A program made the position numbers and the translations under genes. A stretch of DNA of 9,425 bases from a bacterium (GTDB lineage Bacteria > Blakebacterota > Blakebacteria > Blakebacterales > Blakebacteraceae): contig JALGVQ010000113.1 of assembly GCA_025774615.1 (NCBI GenBank), forward strand, positions 1-9,425, written 5' to 3'. Under the pieces are notes generated by a model. That model saw nothing but the letters and a program-made list of their open reading frames with translations, was not told where the DNA came from and did no database searches. How positions within the stretch are numbered: position 1 is the stretch's first letter; each line of letters starts with the position of its first letter. This document shows positions 2,030 to 9,425 of this stretch, piece by piece.

Positions 2030-3712
2030 ATGTCAGGTAAAGCATTCATGAAGCATGCCTCACGGATACTCCCGATCGCGACCCTCCTGCTCGCGGCATG
2101 TACCAGTGATGGATCTCCGGCTCTGATCAAGCTGGAGATCAGCAATCTCCCTGAGAGGATCACCGCCCTGGCTGTCGGGGATTTCAACAGAAATGGTCAC
2201 CTCGATCTGATCAGTGGGAACGGGCGCTGGTTCCGGAATGAGGAAGGTGGCATCGAGTACGATCCCGGTTCGGTGCGGATACAGGAGATCAGGGGAGACA
2301 GTCTGCGGGACATCCATCAGTTCGAGACCCCTGCTCCTCTCGTCAAGGCGGCGATTGCGGATGTAGCAGAGGATGAGGAACCTGAGATCATTCTGGCTCT
2401 TGGCTGGCAGCAGTACGTGGATGGAGCATCTGTCCACCTCTGGATAGTGCATGAACAGGATGGAGACTGGGAGACCGAGGTGCTCTACACCATTCCCACT
2501 CCACGGAGTCAGGTGACCTCATTCCAGGTCGTCGATCTGAACGGGGACGGCCGGGAAGACATCCAGATCAGTTACTTCACCAGCAAGTACTTTATCGAAA
2601 CAGCACAGGTGGTGTGGACTGCAGGGGATGGCTGGAACGTATCGATCCTTCCCGAAGTACGGATGGCCATGAGCCGGCTGGCATACCGGCGCTCTGACCC
2701 CGAACCGCTCATGCAGATCGTGGGCAGGACCTATGGTGACAGCCTCGGTGATCTCGGTGACCTCTATATAGAAGCGGAAAACGGGATCCGGATCGATCTT
2801 CCCGCGTGGCAGGGGATCAACACCCTCGCCGGGGCCGACCTCGATGGTGACGGTCTGACCGAGGTGCTCCTCTCTGATGGCTGGCACAGGAACTACGGCC
2901 GGTTGGCAAGAGCCCGGATCGCCGTACTCCACCCGGAGGTGGAAGGATTCGTCTACGAGTTGATCGAGGACATAACCGGACAGAACAGGATCAACCAGAT
3001 CACGACCGCAGACATCGCCGGAGACCGTGGGCTCGAGATTGTTGCCTCCGGCAACATGGGATTGAGAATCTGGCAGAGTAATGGCGGACGGTTCAGGGCT
3101 TTCTCCCCTGAGGGTGTTCCAGGGGGTTCATTTGCACTGGCAGACATGAGGGGAGGCCGCAGAGCTGAACTCATCATGGCGGGAGCACCCCCTGCGATCT
3201 ATGCGTTCGCACGGAGATTGCCCTGGTCTGACGAACTGAGTGAGGAGGTCATACCACCAGACCTGGAGCCCGAAGATCTGATCGGTCAGCCGGCACCCGG
3301 TCTCATCACGGACGCATGGCTTAACAGCAAGCCACTCTCGCTCTCCGAACTCAAGGGAAAGGTGATCGTCCTCGATTTCTGGGCCACCTGGTGCGGACCG
3401 TGCCGGGAGATGTATCCGGTCCTCTCGCAGTGGCAGCGCGAACTGGCAGACGACGGCCTGATTGTAATCGGTATAACCAGATACGATGAACGGCAGCGGG
3501 ACCTCGATACGGTCCGGTCGTTTCTTGATTCGGAGGGACTGTCCTATCCCGTCGCGGTCAGCAGAGGCAACCAGACCCACCTACGGTATGCGGTAGGATC
3601 CATTCCCCACACGATCGTCATCGGGCCGGATGGAGTGGTCAGGTATAGCGTGGTGGGAGCCGCTGAACCGCATGACGCAGAATCGATCATCATGGAGCTG
3701 CTGGGGAAATGA
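2030..3712 (+). CDS. Predicted lipoprotein: FG-GAP repeat region fused to TlpA-like thioredoxin domain
   Basis: A 560-residue predicted envelope lipoprotein. Residues 7-24 form a lipoprotein signal peptide ending in the lipobox LAAC (Cys24). Residues about 40-395 carry six FG-GAP/VCBS-like repeats starting near residues 51, 111, 169, 270, 328 and 372; the calcium-loop pattern DxxGDG is intact only in the third (DLNGDGRED) and fourth (DLDGDGLTE). Together they suggest a beta-propeller. Residues about 416-560 are a TlpA/ResA-type thioredoxin fold with WCGPC (Trp454-Cys458) and the cis-proline loop SIPHT (Pro526). The protein should work outside the cytoplasmic membrane as a thiol-disulfide reductase, with the propeller as a ligand- or partner-binding module; the substrate is unknown. 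The ATG at 2030 has AAGGA at an 8-nt spacing. An ATG at 2048 is possible and yields the same mature lipoprotein. The gene appears monocistronic. Confidence 0.88.
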   Translation: MSGKAFMKHASRILPIATLLLAACTSDGSPALIKLEISNLPERITALAVGDFNRNGHLDLISGNGRWFRNEEGGIEYDPGSVRIQEIRGDSLRDIHQFETPAPLVKAAIADVAEDEEPEIILALGWQQYVDGASVHLWIVHEQDGDWETEVLYTIPTPRSQVTSFQVVDLNGDGREDIQISYFTSKYFIETAQVVWTAGDGWNVSILPEVRMAMSRLAYRRSDPEPLMQIVGRTYGDSLGDLGDLYIEAENGIRIDLPAWQGINTLAGADLDGDGLTEVLLSDGWHRNYGRLARARIAVLHPEVEGFVYELIEDITGQNRINQITTADIAGDRGLEIVASGNMGLRIWQSNGGRFRAFSPEGVPGGSFALADMRGGRRAELIMAGAPPAIYAFARRLPWSDELSEEVIPPDLEPEDLIGQPAPGLITDAWLNSKPLSLSELKGKVIVLDFWATWCGPCREMYPVLSQWQRELADDGLIVIGITRYDERQRDLDTVRSFLDSEGLSYPVAVSRGNQTHLRYAVGSIPHTIVIGPDGVVRYSVVGAAEPHDAESIIMELLGK

Positions 3713-4838: not shown

Positions 4839-4905
4839 CGATCACCGGTTCTGTCAGAGTCTCACATCAGCAACCGACATGGTAATCCGAAACCGTCGAG
4901 GCTGA

Positions 4906-6030
4906 ATGAAACGGGTCCAGATATCACAGATCGATGTACTCTTTGTGAATGGGAACCACCCGATCGAATTCCTCCTGTTCTTCCCGGAGACATTCGACAC
5001 CGATCAACTCAGGAAGGCCCTCAGGAGACTCTCCTCGGCATGGTGGCCGTTCTTCGGATCATACGAGGGCGAACACATCACATATGATGACTATCAGGAG
5101 GAATTCTGTTTCGATGAGGAAGAAAGGAATCACGAATTCGAGATTCCTGCTGCAGGGGCAGCATATTCAGAAGACTTCCTTCAGTACGCTCAACCTGACC
5201 TGATCCGGTTGTCATTCCTGAAAATCATCCGGTTCAGGAACGGGATCGCACTTATTCCGAAGCTGAATCATCTGGCGGGCGATGGGTACAGCTACTTCAC
5301 TTTCCTGGCAATGCTGGCGATGATGACACGGAAGTCAGTGATTCCCCTGAAATCCTCGTTCGTGAACATCCTTCTGAAACCACACCACAACAGAACCGTC
5401 CTGAGGAAATTCAGATTCAATGGAGATCCCCTGCCGCCGGCACCTCACGATGGGGACTGCACATTCAGGAATCATGAGATCCCGATCGAAGAGGTACAGT
5501 CGATCGTCAGGGACCGCTCAGATACGGAGGGCAATCGGATCTCAACCAACGATGTACTCTCTGCCATGGCCCTGAAGAAGATCGTCGATAATCGTCGTGA
5601 GATATGGAAAGATCAGGTGTCGCTGACCATCCCGATCGACGTCCGCCACAGGGTCCCTGAGTATGGGCGGAGGTTTGTGGGAAACGCACTCCAGGCTCAT
5701 GCCATGACTTTTAATGTTGATAACATCCTCGATGTACCGGTCCCTGAACTGGCGTATTCCATCAGGCAGTCGATGCCCCTGGTCACCAGGGAGTCATATG
5801 TCAGCTATCTTACCGGGTTGGAAGCAGTTATCGATGACAGGCAACCGGACGCGTTCCGTCCGTTCGATCCCGAGACCGGGTGTCTGGTCACGAATCTCAC
5901 ACGCATGCCCGTCGATCGTCTCGATTTCGGTGTTGGCCCCCCTGTTGTGTTGTATCCGCTGACAAGCGGGAAGCACGCTGCCGCGATATTGAGGAGAGCA
6001 GATCGTTATGTTCTGCGGATCGCATACTGA
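4906..6030 (+). CDS. BAHD-like acyltransferase (transferase family)
   Basis: A 374-residue predicted cytoplasmic acyl-CoA-dependent acyltransferase. The N-terminal half carries NHLAGDGYSYF (121-131), which contains the catalytic HxxxD motif (His122, Asp126) followed by Gly127. The region RISTNDVLSAMALKKI (211-226) resembles the conserved BAHD stretch before the crossover, and PIDVRHRVPEYGRRFVGNAL (243-262) matches the family's VDxRxR...GNA segment. The C-terminal DFGVGPP (340-346) corresponds to the structural DFGWG motif. BAHD enzymes move acyl groups from CoA thioesters to hydroxyls or amines, mostly in plant and fungal secondary metabolism. At 374 residues it is shorter than the plant enzymes (about 430-460). 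A condensation-domain-like or wax ester synthase-type relative is the main alternative, but those use HHxxxDG and lack DFGxG. The ATG at 4906 follows GAGG with a short 4-base spacer. The substrate is unknown and no biosynthetic genes are nearby. Confidence 0.75.
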   Translation: MKRVQISQIDVLFVNGNHPIEFLLFFPETFDTDQLRKALRRLSSAWWPFFGSYEGEHITYDDYQEEFCFDEEERNHEFEIPAAGAAYSEDFLQYAQPDLIRLSFLKIIRFRNGIALIPKLNHLAGDGYSYFTFLAMLAMMTRKSVIPLKSSFVNILLKPHHNRTVLRKFRFNGDPLPPAPHDGDCTFRNHEIPIEEVQSIVRDRSDTEGNRISTNDVLSAMALKKIVDNRREIWKDQVSLTIPIDVRHRVPEYGRRFVGNALQAHAMTFNVDNILDVPVPELAYSIRQSMPLVTRESYVSYLTGLEAVIDDRQPDAFRPFDPETGCLVTNLTRMPVDRLDFGVGPPVVLYPLTSGKHAAAILRRADRYVLRIAY

Positions 6031-8893: not shown

Positions 8894-9346
8894 TCAGGTA
8901 GCCGCCTCCAGGCGTCGCAGGGCCCGAATCCAGGCAGGCTCCGCTTCCCGTATGAATGGACCGTCACCGTCCTGGATCAGATCCCGAGACAGCCAGGCTA
9001 CACCAGCCGGGATGCCGCCGGTACATTGTTGCAGCGACATCCAATTATTGATTGCACGTACCAGAAGAGTCGGGTCCTTTTCAGGAAAAGACGCAGGTAC
9101 AAGCAGAACACCTGTGAATTCTCTTTTCACATTTTGATAGAACCTTGACAGGCGCATGAAATCTTTCACATCCCGTGTGACCAGGATGCGATCGTCCTCC
9201 CTGGCTGCATCCAGGATCTCATTATCAGGTCGTCCTGAAAGACCGATACCTCGAACATGGACTGCATCGACTCCCTGGGCTTGCAGCGCGTTGAGCACAC
9301 CATCATGTATATTCTCGTCGAGAAGTAGACGTAGTCCGGATCTCAT
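8894..9346 (-). CDS. DUF5615 PIN-like protein, putative toxin-type nuclease
   Basis: A 150-residue protein with the DUF5615 (Mut7-C-like, PIN-fold) core. LLLDENI (Asp10, Glu11) begins the first strand; a GRPDNEILDAARE helix follows (38-50, Asp41 and Glu43); then LVTRDVKDF (55-63, Asp59 and Asp62) supplies further acidic residues of the expected metal site. The core ends near residue 115, and the ~35-residue C-terminal tail rich in Trp and Arg has no recognised motif. DUF5615 proteins usually lie next to a small partner gene and are treated as putative toxin-antitoxin components with RNase activity, though few have been tested. Its ATG overlaps the stop of the upstream frame (ATGA), as in a coupled pair. 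The tail and the 150-residue length make it somewhat longer than minimal members. Confidence 0.85.
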   Translation of the reverse strand: MRSGLRLLLDENIHDGVLNALQAQGVDAVHVRGIGLSGRPDNEILDAAREDDRILVTRDVKDFMRLSRFYQNVKREFTGVLLVPASFPEKDPTLLVRAINNWMSLQQCTGGIPAGVAWLSRDLIQDGDGPFIREAEPAWIRALRRLEAAT

Positions 9347-9423
9347 GCCTGGTCACCCAGCATGAGCTTCTCAAGTCGCAGATTCTCTCGTAGATGCTCA
9401 TCGATGGATTCGGGGAACAGCCG
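9343..9423 (-). CDS. C-terminal end of an unidentified gene, possible DUF5615 partner
   Basis: The last 26 codons of a minus-strand frame that enters from beyond the right edge and stops at TGA 9345-9343, overlapping the DUF5615 start by 4 bp. The visible product is hydrophilic and helical (FPESIDEHLRENLRLEKLML, then a short tail). The ATGA overlap and gene order suggest an antitoxin or other partner of the DUF5615 protein. Too little is visible to name a family; DUF433 and ribbon-helix-helix antitoxins are the usual candidates, but neither can be shown. Confidence 0.5.
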   Translation of the reverse strand, partial: RLFPESIDEHLRENLRLEKLMLGDQA

Positions 9424-9425
9424 GT

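Follow-up and report, generated by a model that had tools for sequence, protein, structure and literature searches.

The BAHD family is described as one of plants, with relatives in fungi, and a gene that resembles its members in a bacterial genome raises the question of whether it truly belongs to the family, how it came to be there and what its product does. The gene lies within the window, the whole stretch of 9,425 nucleotides of DNA that was analysed, and encodes a protein of 374 aa from an ATG start. The original prediction had read it as a BAHD-like acyltransferase on account of the motifs HLAGDG, STND, IDVRHR...GNAL and DFGVGPP, which are all present in the order that it gave (Table 1).

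Table 1. Positions of the gene and its motifs in the window
Feature	Position	Strand	Basis
BAHD/PF02458 acyltransferase gene, compact prokaryotic clade	4906..6030	+	profile, alignment, tree, model
GAGG, possible ribosome-binding site, 4 nt before ATG	4898..4901	+	read from sequence, inferred
HLAGDG, residues 122-127, catalytic HxxxDG	5269..5286	+	alignment
STND, residues 213-216, second-domain motif	5542..5553	+	alignment
IDVRHR...GNAL, residues 244-262	5635..5691	+	alignment
IDVRHR, residues 244-249	5635-5652	+	
GNAL, residues 259-262	5680-5691	+	
CLVTNLTRMP....DFGVGPP, residues 326-346, DFGWG-equivalent loop, V replacing W	5881..5943	+	alignment
DFGVGPP, residues 340-346	5923-5943	+	

At the sequence level this reading holds. 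The window protein scores 44.6 bits against PF02458 (cut-off 22.7, E 1e-11, residues 99-361), which is both its best match in Pfam and the sole family matched at E up to 1. PF02458 is also matched by all 35 aligned prokaryotic relatives, and the predicted fold lies nearest to plant BAHD structures. A search of the PDB with the single sequence recovers a hydroxycinnamoyl-CoA:tartrate transferase at 1e-9 and a search with a profile recovers HCTs at 1e-47; NCBIfam holds no model covering the window protein or its relatives in the compact clade described below. The window gene is a genuine member of the plant-and-fungal BAHD family. None of the outcomes named beforehand as speaking against this was found, as the best match is to neither a wax ester synthase, a condensation nor a PapA family, and the DFGVG of the window aligns with the DFGWG loop of plant enzymes.

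The AlphaFold2 model computed with the 35-row alignment has a pLDDT of 89 and a pTM of 0.89 (pLDDT 32 without the alignment), and the predicted two-domain BAHD fold spans the full length of the protein. The top 50 Foldseek matches listed are all BAHD-family structures. Superposition by VIA-align onto Coleus HCT (5kjv) covers window residues 1-374 with a Z of 34.2 and an rmsd of 2.7 over 346 residues, and suggests a channel leading to His122. Other BAHD folds that match include the EPS1 lyase (6wao/6wcs, Z 33), agmatine coumaroyltransferase (7cys, Z 32), vinorine synthase (Z 30.9), spermidine transferase (6lpw, Z 30.5), the fungal trichothecene 3-O-acetyltransferase TRI101 (Z 28-30) and CER2-like proteins (about 28 or less). 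It is extremely improbable that the protein is instead a member of one of the sister families (wax ester synthases, PapA, NRPS condensation domains) and is BAHD-like by shared fold only. The general two-domain fold is indeed common to these groups, but PapA5 (Z 23.0) and condensation domains (about 22) score clearly lower, a Pfam search at E up to 1 links the window protein to neither the PapA and wax ester synthase families nor PF00668 (NRPS condensation), and BAHD comes first by a wide margin in fold and sequence alike. The residue before H122 is N121, giving NHLAGDG and not HHxxxDG. Among the wider relatives, 9 of 35 match PF00668 weakly (best 3e-5).

Like the HCT/HTT enzymes (5kjv, 5fal, 4g0b, 9wts), the window protein combines a full-length fold and a long sequence match with HxxxDG, R-x-P....DFGxG and a GN after the D-x-R motif. 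It differs from them in its identity of 19-21%, in its length, which falls about 50-70 residues short of the solved chains, and in lacking the Trp of DFGWG, and the likeness in sequence and predicted model does not by itself point to phenylpropanoid acceptors. The idea of reading the substrate off the active site of HCT was abandoned, since at 20% identity the pockets align with too little certainty.

The window protein and its closest relatives form a compact clade of 13 sequences, each about 374 aa long, which come from Aminicenantes-type genomes, Calditrichota, bacterium SpSt-1139, Asgard archaea and the phylum of the window itself, represented by four genomes. Homologues within the clade align end to end at 36-48% identity. 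Few prokaryotes carry PF02458: it is above cut-off in 4 of 386 genomes drawn across the domain, the window's genome included, and in 1 of 396 genomes in the phylum of the actinomycete-like genome G247, namely G247 alone. One PF02458 gene was found in the window's genome (3.3 Mb, 82% complete). A same-genus genome and two same-family genomes, which are all the others of the phylum examined, gave no match to the BAHD gene, an absence that may reflect missing sequence, these genomes being 63-85% complete. Searching genome_contigs (84,980 species genomes) with a DNA pattern that encodes [N/S]x[S/T]RxPxxxxDFGxGxP gave 59 stretches, among which phmmer placed seven loci far closer to the window protein than the others (E 1e-35 to 1e-120, the others 4e-24 or weaker): two in Aminicenantes and one each in an 'Acidobacteria' record, Calditrichaeota CLD5, bacterium SpSt-1139, a Heimdallarchaeota genome and another Asgard archaeon. 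Each of the seven genomes carries one gene, the second Asgard copy being split between two frames. When the class to which the first Aminicenantes genome belongs was scanned with a profile built from the seven loci, 11 of 142 genomes matched; of these 11, two are longer, ring-type relatives, another is truncated at the end of its contig and another is broken. For the phylum that includes the Heimdallarchaeota genome the figure was 4 of 227, and among 297 genomes sampled from the phylum of the first Aminicenantes genome, that genome itself was the only one to match. No relatives were returned by single-sequence scans of genome_contigs and viral_contigs, by tblastn of plasmids or, in viral contigs, by patterns from two-row alignments, and an alignment of six distant bacterial BAHDs proved too varied to yield patterns. 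The spread of the compact clade is patchy. Broken or partial copies occur in an Aminicenantes-class genome and in Asgard genomes (L109 8509-9137, L031 4206-5230 and L104), and because some relatives are broken (L109, L031) the gene appears to be dispensable in some hosts.

In the tree, the compact clade has full support (100/100) and a long stem. The window protein lies within a seven-row group (100/99) whose other six members are Aminicenantes-type, with an exact placement at 89/75, and the three Asgard rows form one branch inside the clade (100/100). Other prokaryotic BAHDs of 384-460 aa, from Ignavibacteria, Neomarinimicrobiota, Spirochaetaceae, Myxococcota, Nocardia and others, share with the window protein PF02458, a similar start (SPVDY.FTG) and LVTNLSR.P....DFGxGxP, but stand on separate branches outside the compact clade at 21-25% identity. 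Two side observations concern other BAHD genes: four genomes of a five-genome phylum (L004, L005, L024, L025) carry a different, longer PF02458 protein, and G247 has two BAHD genes (L003, L007) separated by about 11 kb, in the vicinity of genes that resemble a DegT-type aminotransferase and a P450, which may mark a natural-product cluster. The plant rows are far from the window gene and adjoin actinomycete and other bacterial BAHDs. As the tree has a midpoint root and two plant rows only, it speaks against a recent plant source and not on deep origins. On the horizontal transfer for which the original prediction had proposed a phylogeny, the tree places the window gene among Aminicenantes-type rows but lends no support to recent transfer from plants to bacteria, as the plant rows stand opposite, together with other bacterial rows. 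From this branching order, transfer between prokaryotes is likely, and the simplest reading would be transfer from an Aminicenantes-like lineage, because the window's genome belongs to another phylum and its kin have no match.

A misbinned contig appears unlikely, because an ortholog of the contig's FG-GAP/TlpA gene is present in the same-genus genome (identity 81% for DNA, 79% for protein), the GC3 of the BAHD gene (0.64) fits that of most neighbours (0.65-0.71), and positions 9312-9425 of the window match the start of contig C214 from the same genome exactly over 114 bases, so that the window continues on C214. Contamination by an Aminicenantes contig is disfavoured by the GC3 fit and by the pattern of the FG-GAP/TlpA ortholog, which was not found in ten genomes carrying the BAHD gene. 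The neighbours in the window encode an SPFH protein, a GntR regulator, the FG-GAP/TlpA fusion, a signal peptidase I, an ADOP permease and a DUF5615 protein, none of them an evident pathway partner. As originally claimed, the gene stands alone: its flanks are a type I signal peptidase and an ADOP permease on the opposite strand. No operon partner recurs across the compact clade, in which neighbours vary by host except among close relatives, and the loci of the wider ring show no agreement among their neighbours. Read by eye, two Neomarinimicrobiota ring loci have a CBS-domain-like gene in common, two Ignavibacteriales ring loci share a ferritin-like gene and a PAS-like kinase, and one Bdellovibrio ring gene adjoins an apparent thiolase.

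None of the 35 aligned prokaryotic sequences departs from H122, D126 and G127, and the 13 compact-clade rows are further invariant at P243, D245, R247, G259, N260, T329, N330, P335, F341, G342 and P346. Conserved positions of the clade's own, at which the wider ring has other residues, include E21, W47, G125, P147, P291 and R371. The C-terminal DFGVG keeps the position and the D-F-G-x-G of DFGWG, while the W is replaced throughout the clade by V, T, S, G or N and DFG reads NFG in 4 of the 13 rows. Three close pairs within the clade have dN of 0.13-0.14, dS of 0.63-1.01 and dN/dS of 0.14-0.22, so that the protein is under purifying selection in these relatives. Together with the PF02458 match and the end-to-end alignment of the homologues, this shows that the reading frame is no product of chance.

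To our knowledge no activity has been measured for any member of the compact clade. The protein is very probably a single-chain, two-domain, acyl-CoA-dependent BAHD acyltransferase of a compact clade of about 374 aa. It would most likely act as an O- or N-acyltransferase with His122 as the general base, a mechanism that has been reviewed for the BAHD family (PMC10585174). As in vinorine synthase and HCT, the pocket would be formed by two domains similar in size, and His122 of HLAGDG would take a proton from a hydroxyl or amine group on a small acceptor. This acceptor would then attack the thioester carbonyl of acyl-CoA and CoA would leave. Asp126 and the DFGVG loop may be structural or may aid CoA binding. 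We infer a CoA donor, O- or N-acylation and a cytosolic site. Counting against this reading are the clade-wide loss of the DFGWG Trp and the lack of any neighbour that indicates a pathway. The motif is variable among accepted BAHD members (PMC10585174).

The fold alone is insufficient proof of acyl transfer, because the plant family includes other chemistries (the EPS1 lyase) and non-enzymatic roles (CER2-like proteins). Such exceptions are near to the window protein in fold (6wao/6wcs, 9uu3), and the replaced W would suit a non-catalytic CER2-like scaffold or an EPS1-like lyase. This is very improbable given that HxxxDG is invariant in 35 of 35 sequences and that the loop retains F-G-x-G in 12 of 13 members of the compact clade. 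CER2-like proteins are recognised by an incomplete set of HxxxD and DFGWG, whereas the window protein has a complete HxxxDG and retains DFGxG, and no fatty-acid elongase partner was recognised nearby.

For an active acyltransferase, a gene that is lone, mobile and present in single copy suggests that many cells can supply both substrates, and this keeps detoxification and polyamine acylation as live options within the same mechanism. It is rather unlikely that the enzyme serves mainly for detoxification or self-protection, acetylating hydroxylated compounds of foreign origin in the manner of fungal TRI101, and not for biosynthesis. The stand-alone single-copy gene, its patchy spread and its transfer between phyla would fit such a role, and TRI101 shares the BAHD fold and is among the matches. 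However, TRI101 is longer, at about 14% identity, it ranks below HCT-type enzymes in sequence and fold, and no resistance or efflux gene recurs beside the compact-clade members examined. A polyamine N-acyltransferase of spermidine or agmatine type, with a universal small amine as acceptor, is improbable, although an acceptor that is common inside cells would account for the solitary gene in hosts that are unrelated and include archaea. Agmatine coumaroyltransferases and spermidine transferases are good fold matches, and the former also lack the DFGWG Trp (PMC10585174), but HCT and other O-acyltransferases match as well or better and no polyamine gene was recognised near the compact-clade loci examined. 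For the acyltransferase as such, we infer an accessory and not a core role, gained by transfer between prokaryotes. That the compact clade is a distinct active BAHD class, shared horizontally by bacterial candidate phyla and Asgard archaea and using an acceptor outside known BAHD pathways, is plausible though just short of probable.

BAHD copies number 1-2 in algae and about 100 in several angiosperms (PMC9950517). The statement that bacterial members are little studied is consistent with the openly licensed papers searched, among which no report of a prokaryotic BAHD was found. No description of the compact clade was found there either, though earlier reports may exist; the novelty is this clade, as the BAHD kind is already known. 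Its presence in uncultured bacteria and Asgard archaea offers natural scaffolds of small size, additional outgroups with which to root the plant BAHD family, and a testable case of cross-domain transfer.

Two further features of the window concern its other genes. Positions 2030-3712 encode a protein that joins FG-GAP repeats to a TlpA/ResA-like thioredoxin domain containing WCGPC; its ortholog occurs, among the genomes tested, in the same-genus genome only. The DUF5615 PIN-like gene at 8894-9346 of the window is preceded on the same strand, with an overlap of about 4 bases, by a 130-aa ORF at 32-424 of C214 (L020), and the two may form a toxin-antitoxin pair that spans the join of the two contigs.
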